Part shown: positions 1 to 22,045 of the stretch, one piece after another
Numbering within the stretch: position 1 is the stretch's first letter
Layout of the letters: each line of letters starts with the position of its first letter
Source: a virus
IMG/VR virus record: IMGVR_UViG_3300024273_001103
Span: 1 to 25,350 of that record
Strand: one strand, 5' to 3'
Length of the DNA stretch: 25,350 bases
Made by a program: the position numbers and the translations under genes
The notes under the pieces: model-generated
Seen by the model: the letters and a program-made list of their open reading frames with translations, nothing else
Database searches by the model: none
What the model was told of the DNA's origin: nothing

Positions 1-2334
1 GCTATCTTTTTTAAATCGACCATATTTTATAGCTAATTCTACACTTGCTTTCCTGCGTTCTTTGTTTTTTGCTATATTTTCCACTACCCCTAAGCTTTGT
101 TCTGGGGTTAATGTTTTGGAGAACTGCATAGTTCCAGCTTTCAAGCCTCCCTCTTTCTTTAAATCTATATCTCCAAGCGCTTCGCTAACTTTTGAGGTTA
201 ATTTTCCTTCTTTACCACTTTTGTTGTACTCTTTTACAAAATTGTAAACATCTTTACCGCTATTAAAAGATATATTGTCGAATCCTTTGGGTTTGAATAT
301 ACCCACTATTACATCGCCTATTTTTTCAAAAGTATTTTTATCGTAATTAATCTGCCCTTTAGCTAAAGCATCTGAAAAAACATTGATATATTCAGTGGCA
401 AATAGACCAGGGGTATTATATCCTCTGTCTTTCATCTGCTTGTCAACAGCCTTTCTCTGCGCCGAGGTCATTGACTTTCTAAAGTCTTTTACAATTTTGC
501 CCTGCTGATTAGCGTCTCCAACTAGTGCGTTAAGAATTGGGTGCAACATCTCGTGACTGCCAACATTGATAGCCCCTGTTTTTTTAGCAACTTCTTTGTT
601 TATGAATAATTGACCATCCACCACAGCTCCAGCCGTCGTATCCTTATTGTCTTGGTAATTTTGTTTGCTCTCTGCAGAGCCTTTAGACTCGCTTATAGCG
701 GATTCCATCTCTGCCGTAGTTTCAAACTCGGTATAGCCTAGTCCTTTTGCTTCAGAGGTTTCTTTAGCAAACTTTAGATTCTTTTCTAAGGTCATGTCTA
801 TAATACCCTGCTTAGCTTTATTATAGTCTGCTTCAAATCCTGTTTTACCCAATTCGTATTCAGCCTCAGTAATATCTCCTCTTCTTAATTTTTTGTTAAG
901 CTCCGTTATTTTATAAGCAGAAACGTCCGCTAAGTCTGACAAAGTTTCTATTTCTTTTATCTGACCTTCATTTAAGCTTTCATATATTTCATTTCCTTTA
1001 ACCACAGAATCTGCGATTTCAGACTCTTTTAGGTCAATCTCTTTTTGTATACCCTCAGCTACCGTAGCATCTTCAGTAGATTTTTTGTTATTCCTAAGGA
1101 CACTTAAGGCGTCTATATTTTTTTCAATTAAATCTCCATCAACCGCTGTTCTAATGGTGCCCATTGCTTTTACTGAATAAGTACCGCCTACTAACCCGCT
1201 ACCTCCTATGAAACCCTGTAGACCAGCTTCTAATCCTTCTTGGCTGGTAACAGCATCTATAAAAGCTTTACCAACTTCTGCTTCATTGCCAGTTCCAGCT
1301 ACGCTGCCTAACTCTTTATTGACCTCTTCTGCTGCATGCTGCAATATCTCTGTAGTAAATTCCTTAGATCCTGTGGCTAAAATTTTAACAGTAGCTCTAG
1401 CTGCTTTATTATATATAAGTTTTTCAGCCAAATATTTACTACCCATGCCAACTAGCCCAGCTCCTCCTTTTCCTTTAGCGGCTCCTTTAACTCCTCTAAA
1501 TATTGTTCCAAGCCCAGCAACTTCTAATCCTTGAGCAACAGCAGCCATACCCACTGGAATAGCGGTATCTGCTTCTCCTGATTTTATAAGTTCTTTTAAA
1601 TCTACACCTAAATTTTCGGCTTTTAACTTGTTAAACTCAATGTAATTTTCAGCGGCGTAGTCCATGAAGAACCCCGTGCCTAAAGTCAATCCACCATACC
1701 CAACACTACCAAGTAGACTAGTAAAAGCATTTACGCTACCAGCAATCATCGCTCCAACATCTCCTTCTTTAGCACCTTCAATTATGCCCAGTGTTTGCTT
1801 AGATTTACCTTTTTCTTCTGCGTAAGCTTTTAAAGCCTCTGTGGTACCTTTGCTACCCAACCCTTCGGTTAAAAAAGTTCCTTCGCCTTGCTCTTCTACA
1901 AATTTATCAACATTTTTTTGGCCAAAGATCATACTAGCGACAGCATTTGAAGCTATATCCAAAGAAGCATTAGTCCCATCGTCGTCAAACCAGAATTCTT
2001 TAGCATCGTAAATCTGTTCTCCAAGATTAGAAAACGAATTTTTAATTGACTGCCAAGCCGATAAACCATTTTCCGATTTTGAATCCGTAGTGTTTTGATT
2101 TGACTCCACAGCTGGATCCGCACTTGCAGAGTCGTTTGTCTTTGCTGGTAAAGCATTGGCTTTCCAATCGCCAAATTCGCTATCTGTATGCCCGTTATCT
2201 TTTAAATAGCCGTATACATTATTTTGAACGTCTTCGTTATCGTACACGTTAGTTTTCCATGCGTCAAATTCGGAATCTGTTTTACCTTTTGAAGATAACT
2301 CGTTCCATATGTTTTTTAATATATCGTCTGCCAT
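1..2334 (-). CDS. Giant virion/ejection protein with zincin-like motif (3' end outside window)
   Basis: This frame is open from an ATG at 2334 to the left edge, giving 778 residues with no stop, so the C-terminus lies outside the window. It begins 10 bases after the stop of the preceding gene. Residues 13-29 and 44-60 form an imperfect repeat, period 31, built on G-x-TDSEF-x-x-WK-x-N. Hydrophobic, Gly/Ala-rich stretches at about 190-225, 255-280 and 368-390 could cross or disturb a membrane. A zinc-protease-type motif HEMLH lies at 594-598, and E648 (in ATEY) is a plausible third ligand. Between these parts the chain is charged and helical. Large late proteins with zincin domains are known from phage polyvalent proteins and crAss-like virion proteins. 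I infer an internal virion protein ejected with the DNA, perhaps processing itself or its partners. No RNA polymerase motif is visible in this part. Confidence 0.8.
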   Translation of the reverse strand, partial: MADDILKNIWNELSSKGKTDSEFDAWKTNVYDNEDVQNNVYGYLKDNGHTDSEFGDWKANALPAKTNDSASADPAVESNQNTTDSKSENGLSAWQSIKNSFSNLGEQIYDAKEFWFDDDGTNASLDIASNAVASMIFGQKNVDKFVEEQGEGTFLTEGLGSKGTTEALKAYAEEKGKSKQTLGIIEGAKEGDVGAMIAGSVNAFTSLLGSVGYGGLTLGTGFFMDYAAENYIEFNKLKAENLGVDLKELIKSGEADTAIPVGMAAVAQGLEVAGLGTIFRGVKGAAKGKGGAGLVGMGSKYLAEKLIYNKAARATVKILATGSKEFTTEILQHAAEEVNKELGSVAGTGNEAEVGKAFIDAVTSQEGLEAGLQGFIGGSGLVGGTYSVKAMGTIRTAVDGDLIEKNIDALSVLRNNKKSTEDATVAEGIQKEIDLKESEIADSVVKGNEIYESLNEGQIKEIETLSDLADVSAYKITELNKKLRRGDITEAEYELGKTGFEADYNKAKQGIIDMTLEKNLKFAKETSEAKGLGYTEFETTAEMESAISESKGSAESKQNYQDNKDTTAGAVVDGQLFINKEVAKKTGAINVGSHEMLHPILNALVGDANQQGKIVKDFRKSMTSAQRKAVDKQMKDRGYNTPGLFATEYINVFSDALAKGQINYDKNTFEKIGDVIVGIFKPKGFDNISFNSGKDVYNFVKEYNKSGKEGKLTSKVSEALGDIDLKKEGGLKAGTMQFSKTLTPEQSLGVVENIAKNKERRKASVELAIKYGRFKKDS

Positions 2335-2344
2335 AAGATTTGAT

Positions 2345-3751
2345 TTAACCGAAGTTATTTGTATTTGTTTCCGCTCCCTTATCCTCTACTCCCTTAGTAC
2401 TATCTCCGCTATTTTTTCCCCATTTATCTATCCAAAAATTTGTAGCTTTCCCGCTTAACTTGGAATTCTTTAAGTAAAAATCGTATAAATCCTTAGGGTT
2501 GTTAATGTCTATATTTATACCTCTAGATTTGCCGCTGTCACTAGGATCAAATTTGAATATTTGAAAATTACCATAATTGTCAGTAAAGTCTTTTTTAGCT
2601 TCTTCTAATTCATCTTCGTCATATCCAGTATCGTTAACGAATTCTTTGAATAAGTAGTCTCTTGAAACGTATGGCCTTGCTTTAGCTGTTGGGTCAATAT
2701 CGTTTATATATTGCACAACCGAAGACGATTTTTCAATTCCGTTTTGTAATTGACTTAGTTGAGAAAACTCTACTGCTTTATTGGCAATTCCTCCGGATAG
2801 GTTTATTTCATCTTGCAATGCTCCGCTAAATCTACCGGTGCCACCAGTTGTAGCCGGTTTTTTATCTGCTGCTCCTTGCGCTGCTGTGTCTACAAGCGCA
2901 TCCATGTAACTATTAAGAACTGCATCCTGTAATAAGTCTTGATTAGCTGGCTCAAACAATGAAGTATCTTCTAAGTTTAATCCGCCCTCAATTAAAAAAT
3001 CATCCGAAGCTAAAGATAACAATGTAGCCCTGCCCCCAGAATTAAGCATGTTTTTAAGTTTATTTCGGATCATATCCTGCCTTGCTCCGCTAAGAGAAGC
3101 GCCTGCGCTATACACGCTCTCGTTCAGCGATAATATATTGTTAGCCGCTTTAAAATCTTTTAAGAAAGGTTTTTGCATAGTAGAATAACTAGCAAATTCA
3201 TCTTTGCTTTCATCCCAGAAATTTAAATTCCCGCCTTTACCAATTCCCATAGTGCCTTGGTCAGTATACACTTTAGAAGCGCTAGCTAAAGATCCTATCT
3301 CATTGCCGTCAGATATCCTTCTGCTATCAAAGTCTTTTAAGTAAGATACTTTATCTTCTTTGAACGCATTAACTTGACCTGATAGATTTTTAAAAGAATT
3401 TTGAACGCCATTCATGATATCCCTTAATTCCATATATCTTGGATCCGTAGCGTCATCTATTTTTGCTATTTCCGAAGCGGCTCTAGCATATACGTTTTTA
3501 TTCTCTACTAAAAAATTAGTAATAGCTCCTTGCTGCCCTGCAGTTAGTTGGGTTAAATCAAGATCAGAGTTTAAGTTGTCTATGTATCCACTTACTTCCG
3601 CGTTAATTTTTTGTTTTTTCGCTAGTTGTTTAGCTGTGTTTATAGCTGCCGCTTGAAACCCTCTATCAAGGCCCCCTTGCATCGCTTCTCCCCAGCTAGA
3701 TATTTTACTTTGGCCTACTAAAGCAGCCCCTTTTACTAATCCTTGATTCAT
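2345..3751 (-). CDS. Putative internal virion (ejection) protein, 468 aa
   Basis: The protein is soluble, largely helical and rich in Ala, Asn, Asp, Ser and Lys, with no signal peptide and no clear membrane segment. The N-terminus (about 1-50) is amphipathic. Residues around 295-310 are a Thr/Gly-rich linker, and the C-terminal 20 residues are polar and probably disordered. I recognise no catalytic motif. It sits between a small hydrophobic Gly-rich protein and the giant zincin-bearing protein, downstream of all tail genes. In podoviruses that is where internal core or ejection proteins (the T7 gp15/gp16 type) are encoded. The role is inferred from position and composition only. The start follows the upstream gene by 10 bases, and no better upstream start exists. 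Confidence 0.72.
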   Translation of the reverse strand: MNQGLVKGAALVGQSKISSWGEAMQGGLDRGFQAAAINTAKQLAKKQKINAEVSGYIDNLNSDLDLTQLTAGQQGAITNFLVENKNVYARAASEIAKIDDATDPRYMELRDIMNGVQNSFKNLSGQVNAFKEDKVSYLKDFDSRRISDGNEIGSLASASKVYTDQGTMGIGKGGNLNFWDESKDEFASYSTMQKPFLKDFKAANNILSLNESVYSAGASLSGARQDMIRNKLKNMLNSGGRATLLSLASDDFLIEGGLNLEDTSLFEPANQDLLQDAVLNSYMDALVDTAAQGAADKKPATTGGTGRFSGALQDEINLSGGIANKAVEFSQLSQLQNGIEKSSSVVQYINDIDPTAKARPYVSRDYLFKEFVNDTGYDEDELEEAKKDFTDNYGNFQIFKFDPSDSGKSRGINIDINNPKDLYDFYLKNSKLSGKATNFWIDKWGKNSGDSTKGVEDKGAETNTNNFG

Positions 3752-3761
3752 AATTTATATT

Positions 3762-4403
3762 TTAACCGTTACCCATTAGGTTTTCAATAAATGTACCTCC
3801 GGAACCGCCCATACTCGGCATCCCTGTCACAGCAGAACCTACTCCACTAGCAATGTTTCCTACTCCACCTACTATAGAATCGGTAGCCTTTTGTTTTGCG
3901 GTGTTGGCTGCAGCTAATCTTTGCTGAGACATGCCCAATAGTGTAGATACTTTTTCATTTTCTGCATCTCTTGAAATAAGTTCTCCTTTTTTCTCATATA
4001 ATTGCAAGTTGCCTGCTTGTTGTCTTTCAGCCTTTTGGTTGGCTTGTTCTTGTTGGCCGATATCTAATGACGCTTGTCTTGTTTGACTTTGTTGCTGCCC
4101 TGCTAAGGCTTGAGCCATTGCTGCAATTCCAGAACCACCCGCAGCACCACTTAATGTGCTCATAGTGTTAGATAATCCTTGATTAGCTTGTTCTGCAGCA
4201 AAATTAGCAGCACCTTGGTTAACTGTTAAGTCTTCCATGGTATTTTCCATGTTTTTATAAACATTAGACGTGTCTTGGTTTTCAAAAGAAGATTTAGTTC
4301 TATCAAATTCACCTTGGGAAGCTGCTTGCTCTCTTTTTCTTTTACCGCTCCCTATTACGCCACTGGCTATTCCGGTAAGACCACCAACTATTTGTCCTAT
4401 CAT
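3762..4403 (-). CDS. Small Gly/Ala/Gln-rich internal virion protein candidate, 213 aa
   Basis: The N-terminus (residues 1-18) is a hydrophobic Gly/Ile helix followed directly by the basic cluster KRKREQ. The middle (about 75-150) is rich in Ala, Gln and Ser and looks like a long helix or coiled coil. A second Gly/Val-rich hydrophobic stretch (SIVGGVGNIASGVGSAVTG, about 176-194) lies near the C-terminus. This build, two membrane-active ends joined by a helical middle, resembles small podoviral ejection proteins such as T7 gp14. Its place between the tail-fibre block and two larger internal-protein candidates fits. The next gene starts 10 bases downstream. The function is inferred; I recall no named family. 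Confidence 0.7.
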   Translation of the reverse strand: MIGQIVGGLTGIASGVIGSGKRKREQAASQGEFDRTKSSFENQDTSNVYKNMENTMEDLTVNQGAANFAAEQANQGLSNTMSTLSGAAGGSGIAAMAQALAGQQQSQTRQASLDIGQQEQANQKAERQQAGNLQLYEKKGELISRDAENEKVSTLLGMSQQRLAAANTAKQKATDSIVGGVGNIASGVGSAVTGMPSMGGSGGTFIENLMGNG

Positions 4404-4784: not shown

Positions 4785-7355
4785 TTAGGCCACTTGGGTT
4801 ACATAGACGGACGCAACTGTTCCTCCTGCTGTGGTTACTGTTACATTAGCGGCTCTAGAAAAACCTGATACGTTGGAACTGTTAACCGCTATCAACATAC
4901 TTCCGTTACCGCTGCCGTTTAAAGGTGTAACCGTTAACCAATTCGCATTACCGTTGAAGGTAGTCCAAGTGTCATTAGACGTAATAGCAACTGTTTGAGA
5001 CGGAGTACCTTGCCCGAAGTTTATACCGCCAGGGCTTACCGATACTGAAGAGCAACCAGTTGTTGTGCTGGACACTTTGTTGCCATATGTAGTACCTATA
5101 CTATTTATAGCATAAGCTCTCATCCAATAAGTAGTGCATGCGGTTAATCCTGTTATTGTTGTACTCCAATCTGTTGTGGTCGCAGGAGACTCAATATATG
5201 TACTAGGTGCGCTAAAAAACTCATCCGTATCATACTGTATACCTGTTTCTGTCAGATTACTGCCATTATCGCTAATAAGAGTAGCTCCAACATCTGCGGT
5301 AGTGTCTGTTGCGTTTGTTATAGATGTTGTAGTTATTGAAGGTGCTCCTGATGATGCTCCGGTGCAATTTATATCTGGGCAACAAAGCCTTAGTATATCC
5401 CACGCTGTTCCAGAAGGTCCAGTTGTTCTTATTTGAGCAAAAGGACTAGCTGTGTAGTCCGCAATAGTATATTCCCACCAAACTATTTGCTGGTAAGAAA
5501 TACCCCCGACTGTCATAGTAGGTACACTATTAGTAGTAGCTGCTGTAAAAGTGGCTTGCCTAGTAGGTATGGTTCCTTTAGCAGAACCTATGAATTGGTC
5601 TACGACAAGTGTTTGCGAAGCAGTAGGCGTGGTGTCAGATGGAGTAGTACCATATATATTATCATAACTTCCGCTATTTAAAGATGTCATCCCGGACGTT
5701 GCTCTTTTTACGCCGCTATGTGTTATTTCAAACTTATCAGGGATGTTTTGAGCATTAACTAAGAACGCTAATAACCCTCCTGTTGGGCTTAAGTCAATGT
5801 TATAATCTGTTATACCCATGCCTCCTGATGATACTGCCGTGCTACAAGCTACAGTGGGCTGAACGCTAATCCAATCACTAAAGTCAAGTAACATAGTTGT
5901 GTCTATGTCTCCATAGTTGCTTATTATTATATCGCCGCTTATAGTTATGGAACTTTGGTCCGTATTGCTATATACAGCCACAAGAGCCGTAGTGTCTACG
6001 TCAAATCCGTTATCATTTGTAAATGTTATACCCAACGGGTCAGATATTGTTAAACTTGGCGCTACTGTAAGTTGAGTAGCTGAATCAACAGAGAGAACAG
6101 TATAAGCTAATGTGGATAGGATCGAGCCATCAGAGTTAAACCTCATACCAGCTGTTATACCTGTGGTGTCTGCTAAAACCATAGAAGCTCCAGAAGCACT
6201 AGTAACTTGTTGAGTTATAGCCTCATTTCCTTCCCATACCACATTCGATAAAGGGGTAAATATGTTCATAGGATCGCCGCTGGCTGAAGTAATAATCCAA
6301 TTAAGAGTTGCTATAGAACTAGAAGATCCAGCGCTAGGCTCCGATATACTAGTGAATTGTTGTGTAACAATGAAACCTCCGCTAAAGATGCTTGTAGCTT
6401 TTGGCTCAAATACTATTTCTCTTAGCCCTAATTGTATCACCGATAAGGGATTAGGAAATACGCTAGCTCCAATATCTCCTGTATATGTAAAGTCCCACGT
6501 TCTTAAAGCAGAGGTGGGAGGGAATTCTACTAGTTGTTGTTGGTAACCAGATGCCTCCATGGTCGCATTAGTGGCCACGGTGAGTATAGTTATTCCGTCG
6601 GTAGCTGTAATGCTATAGACTGCCCCTTGTATACCAAATATGTCTAAAACTCTAGTCTCTCCTAGTCTAGGCACATACCAACCGCTATATGGTATAGATG
6701 TAATTTCTACAGCTTGTGTAAATATTGCATTAGCCACTACTTGAAAAGATATGGAATCACCTGCTACGTTTTGGAGCGGGTATAAATAGCTTATGCCATA
6801 AGAAATATTAGTTAGGTTGTTGTCTACGTCATAAGTGGGCGTTTGGGCTATGGTATAGTTAGTTTGATTTCCAATGACAATATTGGCCGAAGGTAACTCT
6901 AAATAATATCCCGCATCTGCATTATATGTTCTTACAAATAAACTTTCAAGTTGTTGGTACGTGCCAGAGTTTGAATAAGGAGTATTAATTTCAGAACCAC
7001 TCCCGTTAATATTACTACCAACAGTAGCATTGATAACACCTGCTATTGTAATTAAATTAACGTCAGCATCACCAATAACGCACAAGTTTACAGCATAATT
7101 GCTTGAGGGCATAACAAACCCCGTAACGAATGTTACTGTGCATAACACGTTTAGTCCATCTTGCGTAAATACTATAGAAAGAACCGATGGGTCCGTAAAT
7201 CCAGGGTCCATAGAAAAATTAGAGGCAGTGGCGTTATATCCAGAATTTGGAACTATAGTTATGACAGCCGTAGGGTATAATCCCGAAACAATCGCACCGT
7301 CGGGTATCTCATATACAATATTCGTGAAATTGTAGTTGTTATTAGTTACAGGCAT
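4785..7355 (-). CDS. Receptor-binding / tail fibre candidate with FN3-like and BACON domains
   Basis: This 856-residue protein is almost entirely beta-strand and rich in Thr, Ser, Asn and Gly, as expected for an extracellular virion appendage. Residues 1 to about 660 look like a string of Ig-like or beta-sandwich modules that I cannot name. Residues about 666-768 match an FN3-like module common in Bacteroidetes surface proteins (ATLISDNGSNLTETGIQY, GLTACTTYWMRAYAINSIGT). Residues about 769-856 match a BACON domain: FGQGTPSQTVAITSNDTW, then NWLTVTPLNGSGNG and a terminal YVTQ strand. BACON domains are thought to bind carbohydrate or mucin and also occur in crAssphage tail proteins. The gene follows the tail stabilisation gene by 21 bases. 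I infer adhesion to host surface glycans. It could instead be a head fibre. Confidence 0.82.
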   Translation of the reverse strand: MPVTNNNYNFTNIVYEIPDGAIVSGLYPTAVITIVPNSGYNATASNFSMDPGFTDPSVLSIVFTQDGLNVLCTVTFVTGFVMPSSNYAVNLCVIGDADVNLITIAGVINATVGSNINGSGSEINTPYSNSGTYQQLESLFVRTYNADAGYYLELPSANIVIGNQTNYTIAQTPTYDVDNNLTNISYGISYLYPLQNVAGDSISFQVVANAIFTQAVEITSIPYSGWYVPRLGETRVLDIFGIQGAVYSITATDGITILTVATNATMEASGYQQQLVEFPPTSALRTWDFTYTGDIGASVFPNPLSVIQLGLREIVFEPKATSIFSGGFIVTQQFTSISEPSAGSSSSIATLNWIITSASGDPMNIFTPLSNVVWEGNEAITQQVTSASGASMVLADTTGITAGMRFNSDGSILSTLAYTVLSVDSATQLTVAPSLTISDPLGITFTNDNGFDVDTTALVAVYSNTDQSSITISGDIIISNYGDIDTTMLLDFSDWISVQPTVACSTAVSSGGMGITDYNIDLSPTGGLLAFLVNAQNIPDKFEITHSGVKRATSGMTSLNSGSYDNIYGTTPSDTTPTASQTLVVDQFIGSAKGTIPTRQATFTAATTNSVPTMTVGGISYQQIVWWEYTIADYTASPFAQIRTTGPSGTAWDILRLCCPDINCTGASSGAPSITTTSITNATDTTADVGATLISDNGSNLTETGIQYDTDEFFSAPSTYIESPATTTDWSTTITGLTACTTYWMRAYAINSIGTTYGNKVSSTTTGCSSVSVSPGGINFGQGTPSQTVAITSNDTWTTFNGNANWLTVTPLNGSGNGSMLIAVNSSNVSGFSRAANVTVTTAGGTVASVYVTQVA

Positions 7356-7376: not shown

Positions 7377-10300
7377 TTATGATGGTAAAATTGGAGTACT
7401 GCAGGTTGTGTCTATATTTACTGTAAAGAAGTATTCTTGAGCATCTCCTGAGCTGCTAATAGGAGTCCCAATTCCGGCGCCAATAACTTCACAATCATTG
7501 AAAACACTTAAAGGTTTTATATAATTGAAGTATTTACCCTCTTTCTTTTGGAATTCTTTAATTTCGCCCCCTTCTAAATCCGTTTTAACATAATTTACAA
7601 ACCATCCAGCATTTTTTTGCTGAGAAGCTGTTGGTATTAATTGATTAGCATTTACTTCAGCTATAGAATACCATTTAGAATTATTTTGGTATTCAACAAC
7701 CCTGGATTGTGTGCCAGTATAATTTAAAGCGCTGAATCCTTTAACTACTTGAGGCATTTCATTTATAATAGCATTGAAGGAACTTATGTATTGTGTTCCG
7801 TAGAAATTGTTGTATAAACTATTGCTACCGTGTTGCCATAAAAGTCCGTTCTTAAAAGTATAATAAATATTATTTAAAGTAATACCAGCTTCTTTTATAA
7901 AATCTTTCCTGCTAGTCCAGCCTCCTACTCCTTCCATAAAAGAAACCGTAGTGTTTAAAACAAGCGGGGTTGCAGCAGAGCAGCCTTCATTTAACTGATA
8001 AGTTGCATCGCTACTTAATTTTGATTGCCAATAGGGAGATAAATTATTTAATGTTAAATTATATAAATCCTTGTCATCGTCGTAACTACCGATAGCCGTT
8101 GTCGAGGTTCTTAAATTATCAGCAAAGAAACTAGACATCCCGTTTGTAGCGATATTCGTAATACCGTCCATTGACAATCTTATAACTGCGCCTCTATTTT
8201 TATCTGTAAAATAAGTTCTAAAACCATAAGCAGCAAATGACTCGGGATTTTTAGATATTCCAAATTCACCAGAGTAAGGCACAGCTTGACCTAAAACATT
8301 ATTGTTTGATGTTACGTTAGCATTGCCGTCAGCGTTGTACAGGGCGTCCTTATTGGCTAATATTCTTAAACACTTATCTTCACACAAAGATATTAAATCG
8401 GTGTCTCTAGAGTGAAGTTTTTGTATTGTGCCGTAGATAGGGTTTAAGTCTTTCGTTATAGGTAATGCCTGCACAAATTGGTTTAATCTATTTACCCCCG
8501 ATGTTGAATTATATATTTGCGAAAATATCATTCCACTACCACGTCTTTCAGCAGCATATGGTTCGTCTAATATTGTAGAAACTTTAGGTCCTTTATCTAT
8601 TGTTACTTCGTTATAATCATCTCTTATACGGTTAGATTCAACGCCATTGCCAAAAGCAAAAACGTTAAACCAGTCAATAACTTTTGTGGTATTATAGTCA
8701 GCTATATCAAAAGCGCTGGAAGCTTCATAGTAAAAATCCAAATCAACACCTTTTTTAGGTTCAGTTTCAAATATTGCTGGATTGCTTGTGCTTAAAGTTT
8801 TGTTGCCGTCTTTCTGTACTTTTTCTAGAATTTGTATTTCGGTAATTGGATTTGACCCCAATCTATTTGTAAACAAGTCTTGGTCAGAATAAGGTTCTTC
8901 TAGTTCTATATCCCATTGATTTCTGCCATTAGCAAACTCTCCGAAATTGTCATTGGTTTTGTTTAGCCCCCTTCTTTTGAATTGCCGAGTGGTAGCTTTT
9001 ATTACATAGGGTTTCCCAAAAACCCCTGCTGCATCCGCAAATCTAATAATTGTACCAACCTCGTTAATACCAGCCATAGTTCCATTTAGCCACTTTGTAG
9101 GGTCGTCCTTGTCATTTAGAAGGCCATGCACCATAACGGTAAACTTGGTATTATCCGAACATTCCCCTGGATATTTCCAAGGACAAACATTCCCATGAGG
9201 CTTTTCATTTGCAGTTCTTCCGCTTGTATTACCTTGATCGTACCAGACAGCATCTTGGGACATATCGCCGTTACCTTTATTAATTTGAGATGAAACAGGG
9301 AAAGAATTTTTTATAGCGTAATCAGTTTCCTGTATTGGGAAAGTATCAATTATGTTTTTATCAAACCCGAAGTCTCTGTTTATTTTAACAAAGAATCTGC
9401 CGGCAAACTCAGGCAAGTCTTGCGTTTCTTCCTCAAATAAAGTTATTACTATAGGCGCATCTTCAGGTAAATTATTTAGCCAAAAAGCTTCATTCCCTAA
9501 AGCCTTATCTAATTGAACGGCATATTCATTTCCGGTTCCAGTCGGGCCTCCTGATGCAATTTTATAAGTCTTAGTTGAAAAATTATCCGTAGAAATTCTT
9601 AAAGATGAGTTAGAATTAAACCCATCCCTAAAGTTAGGATTACTATCAATGGTTGGCCCATCAAATATAAAGAAAATGCTATCTAGTTGAGGTTTTGAAT
9701 TACCTAAAATAGCGCATTCCGCTCTACCTATTGATTTGTTATTTATCTTAATAAAACTAGGGGCCTCACTTTCTATTGCTAATACTTTATATTTGTATAG
9801 AGCATCTACTGCCTGAGAGGTAGCATGTTGCTTTTTTAGTATTAAATAAGTTTCTTCGTCTACTTTGTTTCTTTCTGAGGAGGGGAAGGAAAGCCAAACA
9901 TTGCCGTCATCGGAGTAGTAGTATCTATCTAAGGCTATATTGTAATATTCCGTAGCACCCTCTTTTATAAATACTTTGTAAGAGGAAGCCCATGATGGAG
10001 CATCTCCTGTTGGCGTAATGCTTAGTTTATTTACAGAGTTTGAATTAGCTATTGGAAAAGTTACTGCAGCTGTTTTATTTGTAAACACAGGTGTTTCTCT
10101 GCCGTAATCATCTTTAAATACGATTCCGGCCTGGTAGGTTCTTAATGACTTTACAGAAGATATAGGTAGGTTAGTTGTAGATTCGTCGTCTGAGTTAGGG
10201 TGTGGCTGACTAAAAGCAGCGGTATTTAAAGACACAGAATCAACATTATAGTTCTGCAAGTAATTACCATACACAAGTCTATTGCCTGTAATCTCCTGAG

Positions 10301-11804
10301 ACTTTGCCATTCTTGGAACGTTATCCCAAGGCCTTAATATTTGATTAGACTCTACTGCTCCTCCTACTATTTCGTTCTCTATTTCAAATGTAGTTGTTAA
10401 TACTCCATTAATTGTGTAATCCGCTCTTTTTAATGTTTCAACAGTATACACTGCTTGGCTGTTTGATTCTTTATACAGTAAATCAACTTCACTAACTTCT
10501 TCAGATCCCCAGTTAATATTTTCAATTATAAGTTTCCTAATATTATTAACCATGCCTGTGTTGTGGCCATCCGATGATAAGTACTCAAATTTGCTGCCAA
10601 TAAAAGCTACACCTGTAAATGGAGAAAAACAAGAGTATTCGTTATCTATATATTTCCATCTATAAGCAAACCTAGGAAAAACGTATTCAAATAATGGCTC
10701 TTTCTCTACAATCAAGCAGTCCCATGTTACAGGAGATGCGAATATTTGTATATCATTTGTTATAGATAATATTTTTATAGTTACTGTGGTATTATTTACT
10801 TCATCTATTAAAGCCCGTATGGAATAATTGAACGCTTCATTAGCTTCATTAGTATATGATCCTGATAGTATAATTATAGAATTTGGCTCTTGAGACCACG
10901 ATGGGACTAATTGGCTTACGACTATTTGATTTTTACCATTGTAATTAAGAGGCAGGTTGCTATCTGCATAATAATTAGGGTCTAAAGCAACATTATCCGA
11001 CCATCGCCCAAAAGTAGGTAAAGATTCAGTAATCCCTGGAGCAGCAGGAACGTCGGGAACATACGTAAAGTTTTCTAAAGTGCCAGTAGAACCGCTAACT
11101 GTATAGGTAGTGGAAACCGGCGTAGTTCCAGTGCCTGGTTGATCAACCCCAAACAATGAAGGGGACATGTTTAAAGTTAAGGATGGCAGGGGAGATTTTT
11201 TAATCACAGTGACATCCGCCTCTGTAAAATCAGGTTGGCCTATTAAGTTTGTTGAATATGTATTTTGGGAAGGAATCCATAAAGGTATTTTTGTTTGAGT
11301 TACAAAATTTATAGAACCTGTTTTGAATTTGTCAATATTTATTTTCTTTGGCTCAGTTTGATCATCTGTCCAAAATAAAAACTTACTGATTATGTTTATA
11401 CCAGTAATACGATAGCCCGTTGAAAATTTTAATATATTTTGAGTATCAACTAATATAGGAGATACTGTATTTGAAGTCTGATCATACTCTGCAATAACAC
11501 TAGTTGTATCGCTGGCTATAAACCAGTATATTTTTTCACTAGCGCTGTCTCTATACGTGCCTATACATTCCGCATTAGGTAAATCACTTATATAGTTAGT
11601 AGTCCAGCTTTCATCCGCTCCACTAGAAGTTTTAAACCGTAGTTCTGAGTTACCTTTTATATTTTGCAAAGCGCCAACGTCACTGCCATCGGAATTTGCT
11701 AAGTCTAAGTTTAAAGCATCCCTATATTCCCCGTTCGGAACTAATCGTTCGTCAAGGTCTTTGTTCATTCTCCCCGATTGGAAAACTCTAACAAACTCTC
11801 CCAT
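7377..11804 (-). CDS. Large tail stabilisation protein (P22 gp10-like), 1475 aa
   Basis: The N-terminus carries the hallmark of phage tail stabilisation (tail needle/tube) proteins: GRMNKDLDERLVPNGEYRDA at residues 11-30, with ALNL just after. A second familiar block, GNRLVYGNYLQNYN, lies at about 505-520. The protein is beta-rich, with many Tyr/Trp/Asp strands consistent with a beta-propeller or hub. A Cys pair (CPWKYPGEC) occurs near residue 875, and two Cys lie near the C-terminus. P22 gp10 is about 470 residues, so this is roughly three times longer; crAss-like and related Bacteroidetes phages carry enlarged versions. It should sit below the ring proteins in the tail and hold the fibre proteins. 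Its start lies 3 bases after the stop of the connector gene, so the two are probably translationally coupled. Confidence 0.85.
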   Translation of the reverse strand: MGEFVRVFQSGRMNKDLDERLVPNGEYRDALNLDLANSDGSDVGALQNIKGNSELRFKTSSGADESWTTNYISDLPNAECIGTYRDSASEKIYWFIASDTTSVIAEYDQTSNTVSPILVDTQNILKFSTGYRITGINIISKFLFWTDDQTEPKKINIDKFKTGSINFVTQTKIPLWIPSQNTYSTNLIGQPDFTEADVTVIKKSPLPSLTLNMSPSLFGVDQPGTGTTPVSTTYTVSGSTGTLENFTYVPDVPAAPGITESLPTFGRWSDNVALDPNYYADSNLPLNYNGKNQIVVSQLVPSWSQEPNSIIILSGSYTNEANEAFNYSIRALIDEVNNTTVTIKILSITNDIQIFASPVTWDCLIVEKEPLFEYVFPRFAYRWKYIDNEYSCFSPFTGVAFIGSKFEYLSSDGHNTGMVNNIRKLIIENINWGSEEVSEVDLLYKESNSQAVYTVETLKRADYTINGVLTTTFEIENEIVGGAVESNQILRPWDNVPRMAKSQEITGNRLVYGNYLQNYNVDSVSLNTAAFSQPHPNSDDESTTNLPISSVKSLRTYQAGIVFKDDYGRETPVFTNKTAAVTFPIANSNSVNKLSITPTGDAPSWASSYKVFIKEGATEYYNIALDRYYYSDDGNVWLSFPSSERNKVDEETYLILKKQHATSQAVDALYKYKVLAIESEAPSFIKINNKSIGRAECAILGNSKPQLDSIFFIFDGPTIDSNPNFRDGFNSNSSLRISTDNFSTKTYKIASGGPTGTGNEYAVQLDKALGNEAFWLNNLPEDAPIVITLFEEETQDLPEFAGRFFVKINRDFGFDKNIIDTFPIQETDYAIKNSFPVSSQINKGNGDMSQDAVWYDQGNTSGRTANEKPHGNVCPWKYPGECSDNTKFTVMVHGLLNDKDDPTKWLNGTMAGINEVGTIIRFADAAGVFGKPYVIKATTRQFKRRGLNKTNDNFGEFANGRNQWDIELEEPYSDQDLFTNRLGSNPITEIQILEKVQKDGNKTLSTSNPAIFETEPKKGVDLDFYYEASSAFDIADYNTTKVIDWFNVFAFGNGVESNRIRDDYNEVTIDKGPKVSTILDEPYAAERRGSGMIFSQIYNSTSGVNRLNQFVQALPITKDLNPIYGTIQKLHSRDTDLISLCEDKCLRILANKDALYNADGNANVTSNNNVLGQAVPYSGEFGISKNPESFAAYGFRTYFTDKNRGAVIRLSMDGITNIATNGMSSFFADNLRTSTTAIGSYDDDKDLYNLTLNNLSPYWQSKLSSDATYQLNEGCSAATPLVLNTTVSFMEGVGGWTSRKDFIKEAGITLNNIYYTFKNGLLWQHGSNSLYNNFYGTQYISSFNAIINEMPQVVKGFSALNYTGTQSRVVEYQNNSKWYSIAEVNANQLIPTASQQKNAGWFVNYVKTDLEGGEIKEFQKKEGKYFNYIKPLSVFNDCEVIGAGIGTPISSSGDAQEYFFTVNIDTTCSTPILPS

Positions 11805-11807
11805 ATA

Positions 11808-12719
11808 CTAGTGTTTTATGATCTTAGATTTGTTACGCATAACCTGAGTAATTTCCTCTATCTTAATATTAGATAATCTTAGCTTTGCGTTCCTTTTAGC
11901 AGCTGCTCTTTCTTTCTTGAACCTAGATACTAAATACTCTGGCGTATTAGCCCTTGTAGATAATATCGCGTACGCTATGTACTTATATAAAGCTTCTTCT
12001 GCGAATTTATGAACAGTCATATCCTCATCATTACCTCCAATACCATCTGAGATATATTTCAGCGTAACAATTCTACCAACAAATGATGAATCAAAGAATA
12101 TTACTCCTTGAAGTTGATCTATATAAAATACACCATTTACTTGAGCTTGCTGTGGAGATATGCCATACCTTCTGCCATAGTTTCTGAGGTAGGTTACATC
12201 TGTAGGAATTACATCATCAACATTTACGCTTGTGGACGTGGAGTTTTGAAATCTTTTTTGAGTCTCTGATGATTGAGCAGATATAACTTCCTGATCTTGT
12301 TCGTCAAACAGGTATTCATAGTTTGCGTCTTGCAATATAGGAAAAGGGTTGCTTGTGTTTATGGCAGGATATATAACTCTTTCAATACCAGCGCCGTCTA
12401 TCCATGTAAGCTTCACATAGTTAACATAATCCTTAGGTAGTATAAAGTTTAAATTTGGTCCAATCTCAATTTCTTGGCTTTTAACCGAAGGTAGAATATC
12501 AAAACTAAATTCCTGTAATCCACGTTGAGCATGAAACGCTACGTCTGTTCTTTTTGCTTTAGGTATAATCTTTTCTTCACCTACGTATGATATAATAAAG
12601 TTATTTATAATATCTTTTATACTGGTGAATTGATAATTGCCATAATCCTCATCCCAGCTATTCCAAATACCATCTGGACCTAAGTAATATTGTTCATCTG
12701 TTTTTAACGGTAGGCTCAT
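11808..12719 (-). CDS. Tail tubular / ring (head-completion) protein, 303 aa
   Basis: The N-terminal part (about 30-80) is helical with the sequence AKRTDVAFHAQRGLQEFSFD, typical of adaptor or ring proteins of the P22 gp4 / T7 gp11 kind, including the crAss-like 'tail tubular protein'. A beta region follows (LPKDYVNYVKLTW at about 95-107, with an aromatic strand near 190-215). The C-terminal helix (about 230-300) is basic (RFKKERAAAKRNAKLR). It lies in a four-gene run: connector-like protein, this protein, tail stabilisation protein, receptor-type protein. The spacing is 3 bases on each side. It probably forms a dodecameric ring between portal and tail. The family call is from memory of conserved blocks, not a search. 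Confidence 0.8.
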   Translation of the reverse strand: MSLPLKTDEQYYLGPDGIWNSWDEDYGNYQFTSIKDIINNFIISYVGEEKIIPKAKRTDVAFHAQRGLQEFSFDILPSVKSQEIEIGPNLNFILPKDYVNYVKLTWIDGAGIERVIYPAINTSNPFPILQDANYEYLFDEQDQEVISAQSSETQKRFQNSTSTSVNVDDVIPTDVTYLRNYGRRYGISPQQAQVNGVFYIDQLQGVIFFDSSFVGRIVTLKYISDGIGGNDEDMTVHKFAEEALYKYIAYAILSTRANTPEYLVSRFKKERAAAKRNAKLRLSNIKIEEITQVMRNKSKIIKH

Positions 12720-12722
12720 ATG

Positions 12723-13454
12723 TTATGATTTTTCTTGTTGGATAGTTTCTTGTTCTTCTTGATTCATAACTTGATACAAGTTTAAATCTTTTATTAGTAT
12801 ACCAGCTAATTCTAGTATTTTTATAACAAGATCTGCTTCCTCTGATGGGTGCAGTTCGAAGTCTACGGAATTATTAGCATTGTATAATGGCTCATTAAAT
12901 ACAATCTGATAAGCCCATTTAACTGTTGCTGGTTTTTTTATGTATTGGTAATCTACTAAGGCTGTATCTGTAATTTCAGAATTGCCATACACTTTAATCC
13001 CGTTTGTATTAGAAGTGAAAACTGGGCGCGTATTTGTAGGTTTTGTTAATGGAGAAGAATTTATGTACAAAAACTCATTAGCATTAATACGTTCCGCTTC
13101 TATTTGTTCTGTAGAAGAGACGCCAAATGAGTTGGTTGTAGTATTTTTATAAACGATAGACCCTAACCTATATACATCACTAGGAGCTACGAAATAGCTT
13201 CCTGGACGTGTAGGAGTCCCTATTGTTTCAAATATATTTATTTTTTCATTAAGTAAAGTGAGCATGTCTGAATACTCTGTACTATTACCCGGCACTCTGC
13301 CAAATTGATTTATATCGTAAAAGTATTGTTCAAATAAATCTTGTTGTGCTTGGTTAGCAAATAAGTTAAATTCTTGAGCGGTTACATACCCTCTTTGTTC
13401 TTTATTGAGTATACCAAGTACTCTTTGATAAACAGTATTTACGCTTATTGCCAT
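12723..13454 (-). CDS. Head-tail connector / ring protein, 243 aa
   Basis: The N-terminal helices (residues 1-55) contain GYVTAQEFNLFANQAQQDLF, a block I associate with connector-type proteins of Bacteroidetes and marine podoviruses. The middle is beta-rich (PSDVYRLGSIVYKN at about 92-105). The C-terminal region has DFELHPSEEADLVIKILELA, followed by a helix and a Gln/Glu tail. It opens the tail module: an RNA hairpin lies about 27 bases upstream, and the ring protein gene follows after 3 bases. I infer a second ring or adaptor protein at the portal vertex. The leader before the ATG is A-rich (aataataaaaaataaatt) with no Shine-Dalgarno sequence. Confidence 0.78.
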   Translation of the reverse strand: MAISVNTVYQRVLGILNKEQRGYVTAQEFNLFANQAQQDLFEQYFYDINQFGRVPGNSTEYSDMLTLLNEKINIFETIGTPTRPGSYFVAPSDVYRLGSIVYKNTTTNSFGVSSTEQIEAERINANEFLYINSSPLTKPTNTRPVFTSNTNGIKVYGNSEITDTALVDYQYIKKPATVKWAYQIVFNEPLYNANNSVDFELHPSEEADLVIKILELAGILIKDLNLYQVMNQEEQETIQQEKS

Positions 13455-13480
13455 AATTTATTTTTTATTATTTATAGTAA

Positions 13481-13505
13481 TTAAGCCGCCTTTAAGACGG
13501 CTTAA
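13481..13505 (-). terminator. Intergenic RNA hairpin before tail module
   Basis: The minus-strand RNA can form a 10-base-pair stem (arms 13496-13505 and 13481-13490) with a 5-base loop. One pair (13497/13489) is G·U in the minus-strand RNA but a C/A mismatch on the plus strand, so the structure is intact only in the transcript of these genes. The bases after the stem are A-rich, not a U-run, so this may be an mRNA 3'-end stabiliser, processing site or attenuator and not a classical terminator. It lies between the 272-residue gene and the connector gene. Confidence 0.55.
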
Positions 13506-13521
13506 CCTCTATAAAAGGTAA

Positions 13522-14340
13522 CTATTTAAGTTTCTTTAATATTGCTTTGTAAACTTCCATACCGTCATCAGTCTTAAAGAAAGACGCTAATGCAGAATAA
13601 GGATGTTCGTCAAATGGTATTGTCATTAGTTTTCTACCTCCTTCTCCATACGTGAAAGTACGTTGATCAGAAGATAAACTTAAAATTCCTGCTTCTACCG
13701 CTTTTGCTCCTGTATTCCTTAGTTGAATATGATCATCAGCTGCTAGTTCTATAAATAACACTGGATTTCGCTTAGCAAATATCATTAGATCTCTTTTTAA
13801 TTCATTAGAGGATAGTTGTGTAACTTTTTCTCCAAATTCAGATCTTAATATAGCTTCTGCGTGATCCACATTTAAGTTTTTAGCTGTCGTAAGAGCTTCT
13901 AATTCTAATTCAATCCAATCAATCTGGTTTACAGAATCTTTCTCTTTATCAAGCTCCTTGTAAACGCGATTTAATAATGGATGATATAGTGATAATAATT
14001 GTTGCAATGCAACGTGTTCTTTAGGAACAGTCAAAGTCCCGTTTTTCATTACAATTCTACCTAATGTTGCTTCTCCTTTTTGTTCATCCGCAAACGGTGA
14101 CTTTTGGTTTGTAGCATACCTAAGTTCTCTTTGGTAACCTGATTCGCTATCAAAATATAGCAAAGGCTTACTTCTTGAGTGCTTAGAAGATAGTGTAAAA
14201 ATTAATGGAGATTTACCTGTTATAAGAAAGTATGTTCTTTCTTTGTATTCCCATTTTGGTTTTGAAGGCGCTTTTGCAGCCGACATTACTTGTGGTTGAG
14301 GAGCAATCTCAACTTTATTTGCTGTAACTTGTTTTGCCAT
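13522..14340 (-). CDS. Conserved phage protein of unknown function, 272 aa
   Basis: I recall similar proteins next to major capsid genes in marine phages, but not a named function. The N-terminus (1-35) is Ala/Lys/Pro-rich and probably flexible. Residues about 36-100 are beta-rich (YFLITGKSPLIFTLSSKHSR, then LLYFDSESGYQRELRYATNQ). Residues about 110-200 are helical and acidic, and the C-terminal region contains FTYGEGGRKLMTIPFDEHPY, then a helix. There is no signal, membrane segment or catalytic motif. It is the only gene with a strong hairpin on each side, so its dosage may be set apart from capsid and tail genes. A head accessory, decoration or completion role is possible. A nucleic-acid-binding role cannot be excluded given its charged patches. 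Confidence 0.75.
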   Translation of the reverse strand: MAKQVTANKVEIAPQPQVMSAAKAPSKPKWEYKERTYFLITGKSPLIFTLSSKHSRSKPLLYFDSESGYQRELRYATNQKSPFADEQKGEATLGRIVMKNGTLTVPKEHVALQQLLSLYHPLLNRVYKELDKEKDSVNQIDWIELELEALTTAKNLNVDHAEAILRSEFGEKVTQLSSNELKRDLMIFAKRNPVLFIELAADDHIQLRNTGAKAVEAGILSLSSDQRTFTYGEGGRKLMTIPFDEHPYSALASFFKTDDGMEVYKAILKKLK

Positions 14341-14376
14341 GATATAATATAATTAAATAATTTTAAAAAGTAATAA

Positions 14377-14403
14377 TTACCCCCGCTAATACAACGAGGG
14401 TAA
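14377..14403 (-). terminator. Terminator-like hairpin after major capsid gene
   Basis: In minus-strand RNA the arms 14395-14403 and 14377-14385 pair over 9 bases with a 9-base loop. The pair 14397/14383 is U·G in that RNA but A/C on the plus strand, so the hairpin belongs to the minus transcript. It is followed by a U-rich stretch (ttattacttttt). It starts about 20 bases after the capsid stop codon, where terminators that isolate high capsid expression are usual in phages. Partial read-through is expected, since the following gene shows no promoter I can recognise. Confidence 0.65.
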
Positions 14404-14422
14404 AGATTACATTAATTTAAGC

Positions 14423-15841
14423 TTAAGCGATTTTCTTCAATAACACAAAGTTATTTGCTGCTTGTACGCACAAACATCTTTCTGATAAGAAGTGAACGTT
14501 CATTGCATCCTCGTCGCTTGTGTAGTTTCCACCAACAGATCCCGTAATCCAAGATTTCATCTTTCTATCGTCAGCTTCAGAAGCTCTATAACGGATATGT
14601 AAGAATGGTCTTGAAATATTTTGACCTAATTGTTGATCGTAAACTGTAGAAGTTCCAGCTGGTACAATTACACCTTCAATATCTCCAACTAATCCACGAG
14701 TGGTAGCGTCGTTTAAATATTTCCAGTCAGTTTTGTAAAAGTCATAAGAACCTCTTCTAAATCCTGAGAAACCTAAGTTTAAAGCCATATCCTCATTATT
14801 GTCGAATACACCATAAGATGTTCCTCCAGTTCCGTAAGAATTCTGAGCAGCAAGCATATTGTCAATCCCTAAAGACGTTGAACGATTTAAGAATAGCATG
14901 TTCTCTTCAATAGATCCTTGTTTGTCTAATTCTTGCAAGATAGTATCGAAATCTGCAAGCCCATCTGCGCCGCCAAAATCAGTATCTGAATAAACTAAAC
15001 CTCTATTCTCTAATGCCGAGAATAAACCGTCAGAACCAGTAATTTGAGTTCCAGCAGCGGTTCCAAAACCAGCAGCAGGAGTAATAGGGCTAGCTGCTTT
15101 TTCAGCCTCTAACATACTCATTTCTAATTGGTCTTCAAAACGAATTCTAGATTCATGCTCAGACTTTAAATACCATAAGTATCCAGAAGTTCCAGCTTCA
15201 GTAGTAACTTCAACCCATCCAATTTGAGCAGTATCAGAACCGTTCACATTGTACTTATCTCTTAAGATAATTGGTTTGTTGCTGAATTGCTCAAAAGCCG
15301 CATCAACAGAAGTACCTGCATTAGAAGTTCCTTTTGCATATTCAGAACCGTATACAAATATTTTTCCTGCTGCAGAAACAGTAAGAGCACCTTGGTAACC
15401 AGCAACTGTTAATGTAGCAACGCCTGCTGCGACAGATACTGCAGATACATAAGCTTTTTCAACTGTTAATCCATCCGCTGTAGAAACAACGATAGTAGCT
15501 CCTGGGCCAATAACGTTTTGAGAAACACCGCCAGCAAGCGCTGGTATAACAACTGTGGTAGCTGTAACCGCTACTGGGTTGTATGCAATGTGTAATCTAC
15601 CTTGTTCAGACCAAACTACTTGATCAGAAGCCATAGGCATCTCAGCACCCACCATGCGCAAGAATCCAGAGATAGTACGGTTTCCGTATCTCTCTACTTC
15701 TTTCTCATATACTTCTGGTAAGAATTGTTGAGTGAAATCCATATCTGCCAAAGCAAGATAATTGTCGTTAAATAATGTTTGTGTAGGACGTGGCGTTAAA
15801 TGTGCTAATGCGCCAACACTTCCTGTAAATGATCCTGCCAT
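14423..15841 (-). CDS. Major capsid protein (HK97 fold)
   Basis: This 472-residue protein has the right place (after scaffold candidate, before connectors) and sequence style for an HK97-fold capsid protein. Residues 26-70 hold the N-terminal arm and early helix (DFTQQFLPEVYEKEVERYGN). A long helix follows near 225-250 (HESRIRFEDQLEMSMLEAEK), and residues 310-345 are spine-like. The C-terminal block has HIRYRASEADDRKMKSWITG, then HFLSERCLCVQAANNFVLLK, resembling capsid proteins of marine phages. Residues about 91-165 are strikingly Val/Ala/Gly/Thr-rich and look like an inserted beta domain, perhaps surface-exposed. The leader is A-rich (aaaacttaaaaattaaaaatt), and a terminator-like hairpin follows the stop, consistent with very high expression. 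Confidence 0.87.
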   Translation of the reverse strand: MAGSFTGSVGALAHLTPRPTQTLFNDNYLALADMDFTQQFLPEVYEKEVERYGNRTISGFLRMVGAEMPMASDQVVWSEQGRLHIAYNPVAVTATTVVIPALAGGVSQNVIGPGATIVVSTADGLTVEKAYVSAVSVAAGVATLTVAGYQGALTVSAAGKIFVYGSEYAKGTSNAGTSVDAAFEQFSNKPIILRDKYNVNGSDTAQIGWVEVTTEAGTSGYLWYLKSEHESRIRFEDQLEMSMLEAEKAASPITPAAGFGTAAGTQITGSDGLFSALENRGLVYSDTDFGGADGLADFDTILQELDKQGSIEENMLFLNRSTSLGIDNMLAAQNSYGTGGTSYGVFDNNEDMALNLGFSGFRRGSYDFYKTDWKYLNDATTRGLVGDIEGVIVPAGTSTVYDQQLGQNISRPFLHIRYRASEADDRKMKSWITGSVGGNYTSDEDAMNVHFLSERCLCVQAANNFVLLKKIA

Positions 15842-15863
15842 AATTTTTAATTTTTAAGTTTTG

Positions 15864-17087: not shown

Positions 17088-17119
17088 GATAAAATATTAT
17101 ATAATTATTACTACTATTA

Positions 17120-21770: not shown

Positions 21771-22045
21771 TATTTAGATCTTTTTTCAGCAAACCCTTTA
21801 AAAGATTGTTCTTCTTTTACTTCTACTGGTTTTTCATCAAGAATATCTTGCTCAAGTTGAATTCTACTAAGAATTTCAAAAGCATCAAATATAGCTAGCT
21901 TTTTTGTAGCGGCTGCATTCTTTAGCTTATCAGCTGTCAAATCGTCATCAGAATCAACTATAGCTTCTTTAGCTACTTTAATTAATTCTTCAACAGCTTT
22001 ATGTCCAGCTAGGATTATATTCTTCTTCGTCTCCTTGATATTCAT
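21770..22045 (-). CDS. Small helical protein, possible small terminase subunit
   Basis: From the ATG at 22045 the product is 91 residues. An in-frame ATG at 22090 would give 106 but deepens the overlap with the upstream gene from 47 to 92 bases, so I prefer the shorter form (MNIKETKKNIILAGHKAVEE). The protein is helical, with a basic-helical N-terminus, an acidic linker (IVDSDDDLTADKLKNAAATK) and a C-terminal KGFAEKRSK. It ends in a TAATG overlap with the large terminase gene. Small size, all-helical character and position suggest a small terminase subunit. There is no recognisable DNA-binding helix-turn-helix, so this is inference only. Confidence 0.68.
   Translation of the reverse strand: MNIKETKKNIILAGHKAVEELIKVAKEAIVDSDDDLTADKLKNAAATKKLAIFDAFEILSRIQLEQDILDEKPVEVKEEQSFKGFAEKRSK

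Follow-up and report, generated by a model that had tools for sequence, protein, structure and literature searches.

Recurring linker tags as candidate cleavage sites in a giant zincin-bearing phage protein

What does a metallopeptidase-like domain do inside a giant phage protein? This question is raised by the first gene of the virus record IMGVR_UViG_3300024273_001103. The window, meaning the whole stretch of DNA that was analysed, is the entire record of 25,350 bases; relatives were therefore used in place of contig extension. Its giant protein, here called P0001, comprises 778 residues (778 codons from position 2334 to position 1, open at the record end); that it runs off the window had been stated in the earlier note on this DNA. 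That note described a late protein with the zincin motif HEMLH, possibly processing ejected proteins and possibly fused to a virion RNA polymerase or with one encoded next to it. Here, we report that the linkers of P0001 and its relatives bear short recurring tags, alike within each protein and tied to the presence and sequence of the zincin. We propose that the zincin cuts the giant at these tags, a proposition to which we give even odds.

HEMLH occupies residues 594-598 (nucleotides 555-541), and the candidate third ligand E648 lies in ATEYINVFSDAL (nucleotides 393-391), both where they had been placed. By the composition of P0001 (4 His, 70 Glu), 0.0019 HExxH motifs are expected, and the motif was present in 8 of 5,000 shuffles. 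IMG/VR searches found 5 loci with P0001 and 36 with its alignment (numbered with the prefix L), and HExxH is present in 36/36. When P0001 is aligned with these 36 loci, which share 20-64% identity with it and some of which are near-identical to each other, H594, E595, H598, E648, D655 and G693 are among the invariant columns (37/37 sequences). The three motif residues are thus kept in homologues down to 20% identity. The AlphaFold (AF2) model of the whole 778 residues is of low confidence overall, with a mean predicted local distance difference test score (pLDDT) of 57.6; the zincin part is more confident (block values of 53-65 for residues 481-520 and 64-85 for 521-660). Its predicted secondary structure, read without coordinates, consists of helix 490-529, strands 533-537, 569-572 and 575-579, helix 591-604, which bears HEMLH, and helix 642-658, which bears E648, the three strands and the N-terminal helix standing ahead of the motif. 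The chain thus starts with a helix, a strand and further helices, continues with two strands and the helix of HEMLH, and reaches the helix of E648 after more helices, an arrangement much like that which Iyer et al. describe for metallopeptidases of polyvalent proteins (PMC5512222). Invariance and predicted elements agree with the gluzincin-like zincin claimed earlier, in which H594, H598 and E648 would be the likely zinc ligands and E595 the base. We consider it very probable that this domain is real and of a known kind.

P0001 is homologous to the N-terminus of complete proteins, such as those of L001 (2,318 residues) and L003 (2,617 residues), and makes up the N-terminal third of what is probably a giant of the polyvalent type. 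Complete giants of the 36-locus set have 2,006-3,680 residues, save that of L011, which is split into separate open reading frames (ORFs). Conservation is higher in the N-terminal part and the zincin, drops in the middle, and rises again in a helical domain of about 650 residues at the C-terminus (C-domain), whose AlphaFold model is nearly all helical (mean pLDDT 55.1). A search of IMG/VR found the C-domain encoded in at least 580 of at least 599 matched stretches, of which 80 were retrieved. By the pattern of complete relatives, the zincin of P0001 would be followed by variable modules and then by this conserved helical domain.

The linkers of the giants bear a short recurring tag, commonly of the form hydrophobic-x-F-S-K/R, and each protein tends to its own version. 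The window has TMQFSK (735-740), L001 has VSFSKN, IQFSKK, INFSKT and ISFSRN, L029 has five copies of xFSRS, and L021 has five copies of FSK[TN] in its linkers. Other versions are Q[AF]SN at three junctions in L003 and L004, QFSIEEEY, QFSVEETY and QYSFEEDY in L020, and ELVAS, ELLAS and ELLAS in L024. Among 26 representatives drawn from the 37 giants, partial ones included, [IVLM]xFS[KR] was found 49 times against 5.4 (standard deviation 2.4) in shuffles; these copies are not independent, for they include homologous ones and a few within the C-domain. Ten permuted or substituted control motifs occurred in the giants at 0.2-1.5 times chance. In the remaining ORFs of these loci (135 ORFs, 80,707 residues), the tag motif itself was found 6 times against 5.3 expected.

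Likeness within a protein was measured at three homologous junctions, of which J1 follows the zincin, J2 lies in the middle of the giant, and JC precedes the C-domain. The 37 giants were reduced to 21, 15 and 11 representatives (<80%, <60% and <50% identity), a filter that removed duplicate contigs (e.g., L016/L046). The J1 and JC tags score 8.14 within proteins and 2.21 (standard deviation 1.12) between them in the 21 representatives, 7.80 against 1.56 in the 15, and 9.91 against 1.02 in the 11; these values include several proteins in which the J1 finder chose the wrong serine (e.g., L002, L013, L014). Over six positions, the printed p was 0.0000 of 20,000 permutations in each of the three sets, and over positions +1 to +3, which the finder does not use, it was 0.0001-0.0007. 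The other two junction pairs gave p of 0.0000-0.0002 and 0.0001-0.0094. No random-site control (two kinds, 200 of each per set) reached the real six-position z values of 4.70 and 5.30; random core-like serines in the same linkers had a mean z of 0.9-1.1 and maxima of 4.59 and 5.05. A further test of own tags was entered by 101 giants, of which 100 received a tag call (L031 was dropped), leaving 81 representatives; the protein's own tag ranked in the best tenth (p3 < 0.1) in 28 of the 75 representatives with HExxH, where 7.5 were expected, and in 2 of the 6 without it. Repeats of a protein's own version include IKFSET, IKFSET, LKFSET and VRFSET in L105 and VLASRP, TLASKP and VLASKP in L094; SKASKGL occurs in two exact copies in both L071 and L076, and DKFSIT in L115 and LNESK in L090 are likewise present twice.

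The tags are also tied to the zincin. Across the 75 representatives with HExxH, tag similarity tracks zincin similarity with a partial r of 0.21 (p 0.010) after correction for the C-domain, and with one of 0.18 (p 0.012) when the region before the zincin is corrected for as well; the contribution of that region is r 0.05 (p 0.11). Presence was compared in 168 giants with a complete 5' end, represented by 100 with HExxH and 10 without it (110 in all), from which three giants with a degenerate zincin were set apart. [FYA]S was found within the 17 residues before the C-domain in 76/100 giants with HExxH and in 0/7 without it (Fisher 1e-4); windows shifted by 20-60 residues contained it in 5-24 of the 100. 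Codons were compared at 25 paired tags: of the 130 residues that are identical, 71 share their codon, against 69.2 expected from each gene's usage. Since this count is close to expectation, the tags appear to be kept alike as peptides, unlike recent DNA copies.

Zincins hold their substrates by pairing them with their sheet. The only strands in the window model are the three of the zincin and a short one at residues 736-738, within the tag, beside segments of pLDDT below 50 (729-736 and 741-758; block mean 46). Since strands do not form singly, the tag is presumably paired with the sheet of the zincin in this model, a weak structural hint of low confidence.

In the explanation that we favour, the giant would be cut at its short linker tags by its own zincin, acting in cis or on another copy. 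One cut site would lie directly after the zincin (GTMQFSKT in the window), one or more among the middle modules, and one directly before the C-domain. Cutting, whether while the capsid matures or once the protein has been ejected, would release the modules from each other. A joint drift of protease and cleavage sites is a feature of RNA virus polyproteins. The wider reading, namely an injected self-cutting polyprotein with one zincin per giant and one linker code per lineage (FSK, FSRS, FSET, SKASKGL, LASKP, ASN and others) that drifts with the protease, in a large phage group uncultivated in the phage records searched, is tentative, and we assign it a probability of roughly 0.42. The idea of a protease processing ejected proteins gains new support, because the giants' own linkers carry candidate cleavage sites.

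Several observations weigh against this proposal. Enrichment in the other ORFs was seen for two of the control motifs (hxLS[KR], 23 vs. 8.1; hxSF[KR], 11 vs. 5.1). For positions +1 to +3 alone, the real z values of 3.79 and 3.64 lie above most random-site controls and are exceeded by some (maxima 5.10 and 4.00). The own-tag rank test, passed by 28 of 75 representatives with HExxH and by 2 of 6 without it (L074 and L080, neither tag-like by eye), does not help the proposal. Tag similarity is also associated with that of the C-domain once the zincin is accounted for (partial r 0.20, p 0.006). [FYA]S is missing ahead of the C-domain in 24 of the 100 giants with HExxH, is kept in the three degenerate-zincin (EExxH) giants (3/3), and L189 (SEELYH), one of the seven without HExxH, is tag-like; under a stricter tag pattern, the contrast becomes 67/100 against 1/7 (Fisher 0.009), with 2/3 of the degenerate giants. 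A repeat test free of the finder, in which "with zincin" means HExxH alone and L116 and L124 may carry chance motifs, gave ranks of ≤0.05 in 27/100 giants with HExxH (binomial p 3e-10) and 3/10 without it (p 0.025), and failed to separate the two groups (Mann-Whitney p 0.90). Among other phages, gp074 of Gundel has a zincin motif and no clear tags, and the virion RNA polymerase of N4 has a zincin yet is packaged unprocessed (Iyer 2017, PMC5512222). Finally, concerted evolution would likewise be expected of tags that serve a shared partner protein. Such a partner (the portal, another ejection protein or a chaperone) figures in an explanation that we consider unlikely, although not negligible: the zincin would be an effector that cleaves host proteins after injection, and the tags, unrelated to it, would bind a shared virion partner or guide threading through the tail. 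A shared partner also predicts likeness within a protein, the tags retained in degenerate-zincin giants and their tracking of the C-domain fit it, and effector use of metallopeptidases is among the options listed in Iyer 2017 (PMC5512222). It accounts poorly for the seven giants without HExxH, all of which keep the C-domain and lack [FYA]S before it (one has the stricter pattern), and for tags that follow the sequence of the zincin and hardly that of the region before it.

It is also conceivable that the tags are cut by a separate phage or host protease and that the zincin has another job. Ejection proteins of phage SPN3US are reportedly cut at a motif. A precedent for this kind of processing exists: the virion of SPN3US carries ejected proteins, and its head proteins are cleaved by a prohead protease of the phage (PMC10052503). 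The lack of motif enrichment in the other ORFs of the same loci and the co-occurrence of tags with the zincin, whose sequence they track, make such a protease, at which no search was aimed, improbable here. Recombination joints or DNA-duplication copies left by module swapping, without function at the protein level, are disfavoured and seem very improbable: the middle part between the tags does vary strongly in length and conservation, but codons at paired tags agree about as often as usage alone would predict, and permuted motifs are not enriched in the giants. Comparably slight is the chance that all or part of the giant is a virion RNA polymerase to which the zincin is an accessory, like N4 gp50 or the RNA polymerase-associated protein of crassviruses. 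HExxH motifs are indeed present in N4 gp50 (HELVH at 2228) and in crAss001 gp47 (HEAFH at 2157), a search of the viral structure library BFVD placed a crassvirus "Putative RNAP associated protein fused to zincin protease" at rank 8 (E 0.26), and the N-terminal profile matched N4 gp50 with a whole-sequence E of 8e-6, the best stretch reaching just 0.034. The expectation of a joined or following polymerase was nevertheless not borne out. Pfam detected no RNA polymerase family in seven complete giants (L001, L003, L004, L031, L105, L088, L094) and PHROGs none in two, HHalign matched the family profiles neither to crAss001 gp47, gp49 or gp50 nor to N4 gp50, and a PF00940 search of ten records was empty, as was its control. 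The pattern D-x-D-[GA]-D occurs among the giants of the 36 loci only in L028, as DIDAD at 464 in the N-terminal part. ORFs behind the giants were scanned for a polymerase in two loci (L001, L003); the strand switches after the giant in several relatives (e.g., L008, L010, L019, L021), and same-strand genes follow it in others (e.g., L022, L025, L028, L036). A divergent or more distant polymerase may exist. No paper combining crAss-like phages, a zincin or metalloprotease and a virion or fused RNA polymerase was found in the literature covered, which excluded subscription papers and bioRxiv.

The features of the window are collected in Table 1.

Table 1. Coordinates of the giant gene, its parts and the neighbouring genes in the window.
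Feature	Position	Strand	Basis or remark
Giant virion/probable ejection protein gene, 5' part, 778 aa	1..2334	minus	ATG start, no stop up to record end
Two N-terminal repeats, residues 4-30 and 35-61, helical	2152..2325	minus	12/27 identical; block pLDDT 79-86
Gly-rich hydrophobic helical region, residues ~190-400	1135..1767	minus	Sequence; helices in low-confidence model
Zincin-like metallopeptidase domain, residues ~490-660	355..867	minus	Predicted secondary structure and conservation
HEMLH, residues 594-598, two likely zinc-ligand His and putative catalytic Glu	541..555	minus	H, E, H invariant 37/37
E648, likely third zinc ligand	391..393	minus	Invariant 37/37; on predicted helix 642-658
D655, invariant residue 7 after E648	370..372	minus	37/37
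Junction tag TMQFSK, residues 735-740, first repeated linker tag, candidate cleavage site	115..132	minus	
468-aa protein, likely ejection protein	2345..3751	minus	phi38:1 gp100 counterpart by position (synteny)
213-aa protein, likely small ejection protein	3762..4403	minus	phi38:1 gp099 counterpart by position
Muzzle-like virion protein, 1,475 aa	7377..11804	minus	Pfam crAss_MUZ_C 1.6e-07, 32.1 bits (27-bit cut-off)
Portal	17120-19552		PHROGs match
TerL	19557-21770		PHROGs match
GroES-like	21999-22589		

The hydrophobic Gly-rich segments reported ahead of HEMLH are present in the sequence and possibly form a membrane-active part. At the N-terminus of the giant, residues 4-61 form imperfect 27-residue repeats that are predicted to be well folded; our guess is that they bind the portal or the tail. 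Structural searches with the whole-chain model were filled by its helical part, with a best Foldseek match to PDB at E 2.0 and a best VIA-align Z of 6.2 on residues 454-507, a long-helix match; that no zincin was listed says nothing against the fold. BFVD returned an unnamed protein (E 9e-8) and an uncultured-virus protein (4e-6), both with no function given. Neither PHROGs nor Pfam has a family above its curated cut-off for P0001; PHROG 6808, which is without function, reaches E 0.002 over residues 575-636, spanning HEMLH. No match was found for P0001 by tblastn against 50,697 phage records, nor by sequence in PDB for P0001 or the C-domain profile. The 13 weak matches of a P0001 profile to PDB, including influenza haemagglutinin (E 0.007-0.34), were ascribed to helical and Gly-rich composition. 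In P0001 and the scanned relatives, only LPD23 in L031 (residues 1409-1468, E 8e-4, 19.6 bits against a 27-bit cut-off) reached E <1e-3, and no Pfam or PHROGs family passed its curated threshold; this weak match is also the only sign of a polyvalent-associated domain beside the metallopeptidase in the seven giants scanned.

Individual giants show further peculiarities. L031 and L033 carry a second, different HExxH (TGSLVHELQHVIQL) at residue 1612, in the variable middle part. In L121, L123, L170 and L189, the first zincin histidine is replaced (EELFH, SEELYH) and the linker tags remain or look tag-like; judged by these residues, the zincins are recently dead or altered metal sites. The giant of L011 appears as two ORFs, 10001-15193 (1,730 residues) and 15198-17246 (682 residues), with the break close to the last linker; in L019, a relative, the giant is a single ORF of 2,456 residues. 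The split may be natural or an assembly error. L047, L050, L088 and others have the module (D)FYFADDAxKNVKAVxxxLxxxDVKxKVxQA right before the C-domain tag, which we take to resemble a HAD phosphatase motif.

The gene neighbourhood indicates what kind of protein the giant is. The long virion genes are co-oriented and run from GroES-like through TerL, portal, virion proteins, the muzzle-like protein, a BACON-like protein and small proteins to the giant, in the order of gp089-gp101 of Cellulophaga phage phi38:1 and of the Flavobacterium elemo phage; this synteny with late genes of phi38:1 backs the description as a late protein. The muzzle-like protein matches PHROG 14478 (4.7e-149) and shares 34% identity over 63% with gp097, the muzzle-position protein of phi38:1. 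The likeness of the 213-residue protein to gp099 was judged by eye only, and the 468-residue protein has no PHROG match. After the muzzle gene, the protein at 4785-7355 (minus strand) has a BACON-like C-terminal domain (PF19190, 8.9e-5, 22.8 bits against a 25-bit cut-off), and phi38:1 and the elemo phage lack a gene of comparable size at its place. In phi-crAss001, the genes after the muzzle encode gp45-gp47, cargo proteins that were identified in virions and are presumed to be ejected (Bayfield et al. 2023, PMC10172136). Because of its gene position after the muzzle, the window's giant is probably, by analogy, the largest ejection (cargo) protein, packaged and injected. The assignment to a giant polyvalent-type protein at a cargo gene site is backed by this position, and the protein is, as others of this type, a giant multidomain one encoded with packaging and late genes.

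The phage of the window is a podovirus of the phi38:1 kind, and the related isolate Calle is described as podovirus-like. Gene order (GroES-TerL-portal-...-muzzle-giant) and related virion genes are of the Pervagoviridae type, as seen from synteny, muzzle tblastn and the portal and TerL PHROGs; the fragment may represent a new family or a sister group to Pervagoviridae. The 87 public records with a related muzzle are mostly Flavobacterium and Cellulophaga phages, with two from Tenacibaculum and one from Maribacter. Among eight metagenome-assembled genomes with the C-domain (14 loci), five are named Bacteroidota groups; the remainder (Aliivibrio, Woesearchaeota, Maricaulis) are perhaps binning strays. 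The hosts are probably Bacteroidota, and the habitat is probably marine.

If the tags are zincin sites, the role of polyvalent zincins becomes simply testable, and cut products can be predicted for the many genomes that encode the C-domain. Giant proteins could then pass the narrow tail as a chain and separate into working parts afterwards.

Giant virion proteins with a zincin motif occur in several podovirus lineages, examples being crAss001 gp47, elemo gp18, Gundel gp074 and N4 gp50. The C1 domain of N4 gp50 (PMC12633501, PMC8472413) resembles our case in that it belongs to a giant ejected protein, is a conserved HExxH domain, and has two smaller ejection genes adjoining; unlike N4 gp50, the giants of the window's family have no detected RNA polymerase, and their zincin precedes the variable part. 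N4 gp50 shows no repeated tags by eye. It is packaged unprocessed (PMC5512222). In phi-crAss001, gp45, gp46 and gp47 are likewise encoded downstream of the muzzle gene (PMC10172136). None of gp45, gp46, gp47, gp49 and gp50, which as single target sequences allow no decisive result, gave an HHalign match to the family profiles (probability under 2 for gp45 and gp46), and the N-terminal profile matched gp45 weakly by hmmsearch (whole-sequence E 0.0099). At the same position of the same gene order, phi38:1 (Pervagoviridae) has gp101, which differs in its length of 1,691 residues and in lacking HExxH and, by eye, tags. The elemo phage has gp18 at this position, with HEIFH at 1543, a weak HHalign zincin match (probability 59, E 9e-5) and no tags by eye. 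Tenacibaculum phage Gundel_1 gp074, a structural protein of 2,482 residues, matches the C-domain (HHalign probability 93.8) and has HEFGH at 1337; unlike the window's giant, it lacks clear tags and is encoded ahead of the terminase gene.

The closest comparison is with polyvalent proteins, in which zincins are the commonest domain (Iyer et al. 2017, PMC5512222). Their metallopeptidases share with the giant an HEXXH helix followed by a glutamate on a second helix, a three-stranded sheet, and residence in a giant multidomain late protein, and their role was left open between self-cutting before or after injection and attack on host proteins. A description of cleavage tags in polyvalent proteins was not found in the same literature coverage, and the consulted passages of Iyer et al. 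name no cleavage sites (PMC5512222), whereas candidate sites can be named for the window's giant family. The idea of a self-processing zincin is thus already published (Iyer 2017); what is added here are candidate sites whose statistics resemble those of protease sites.

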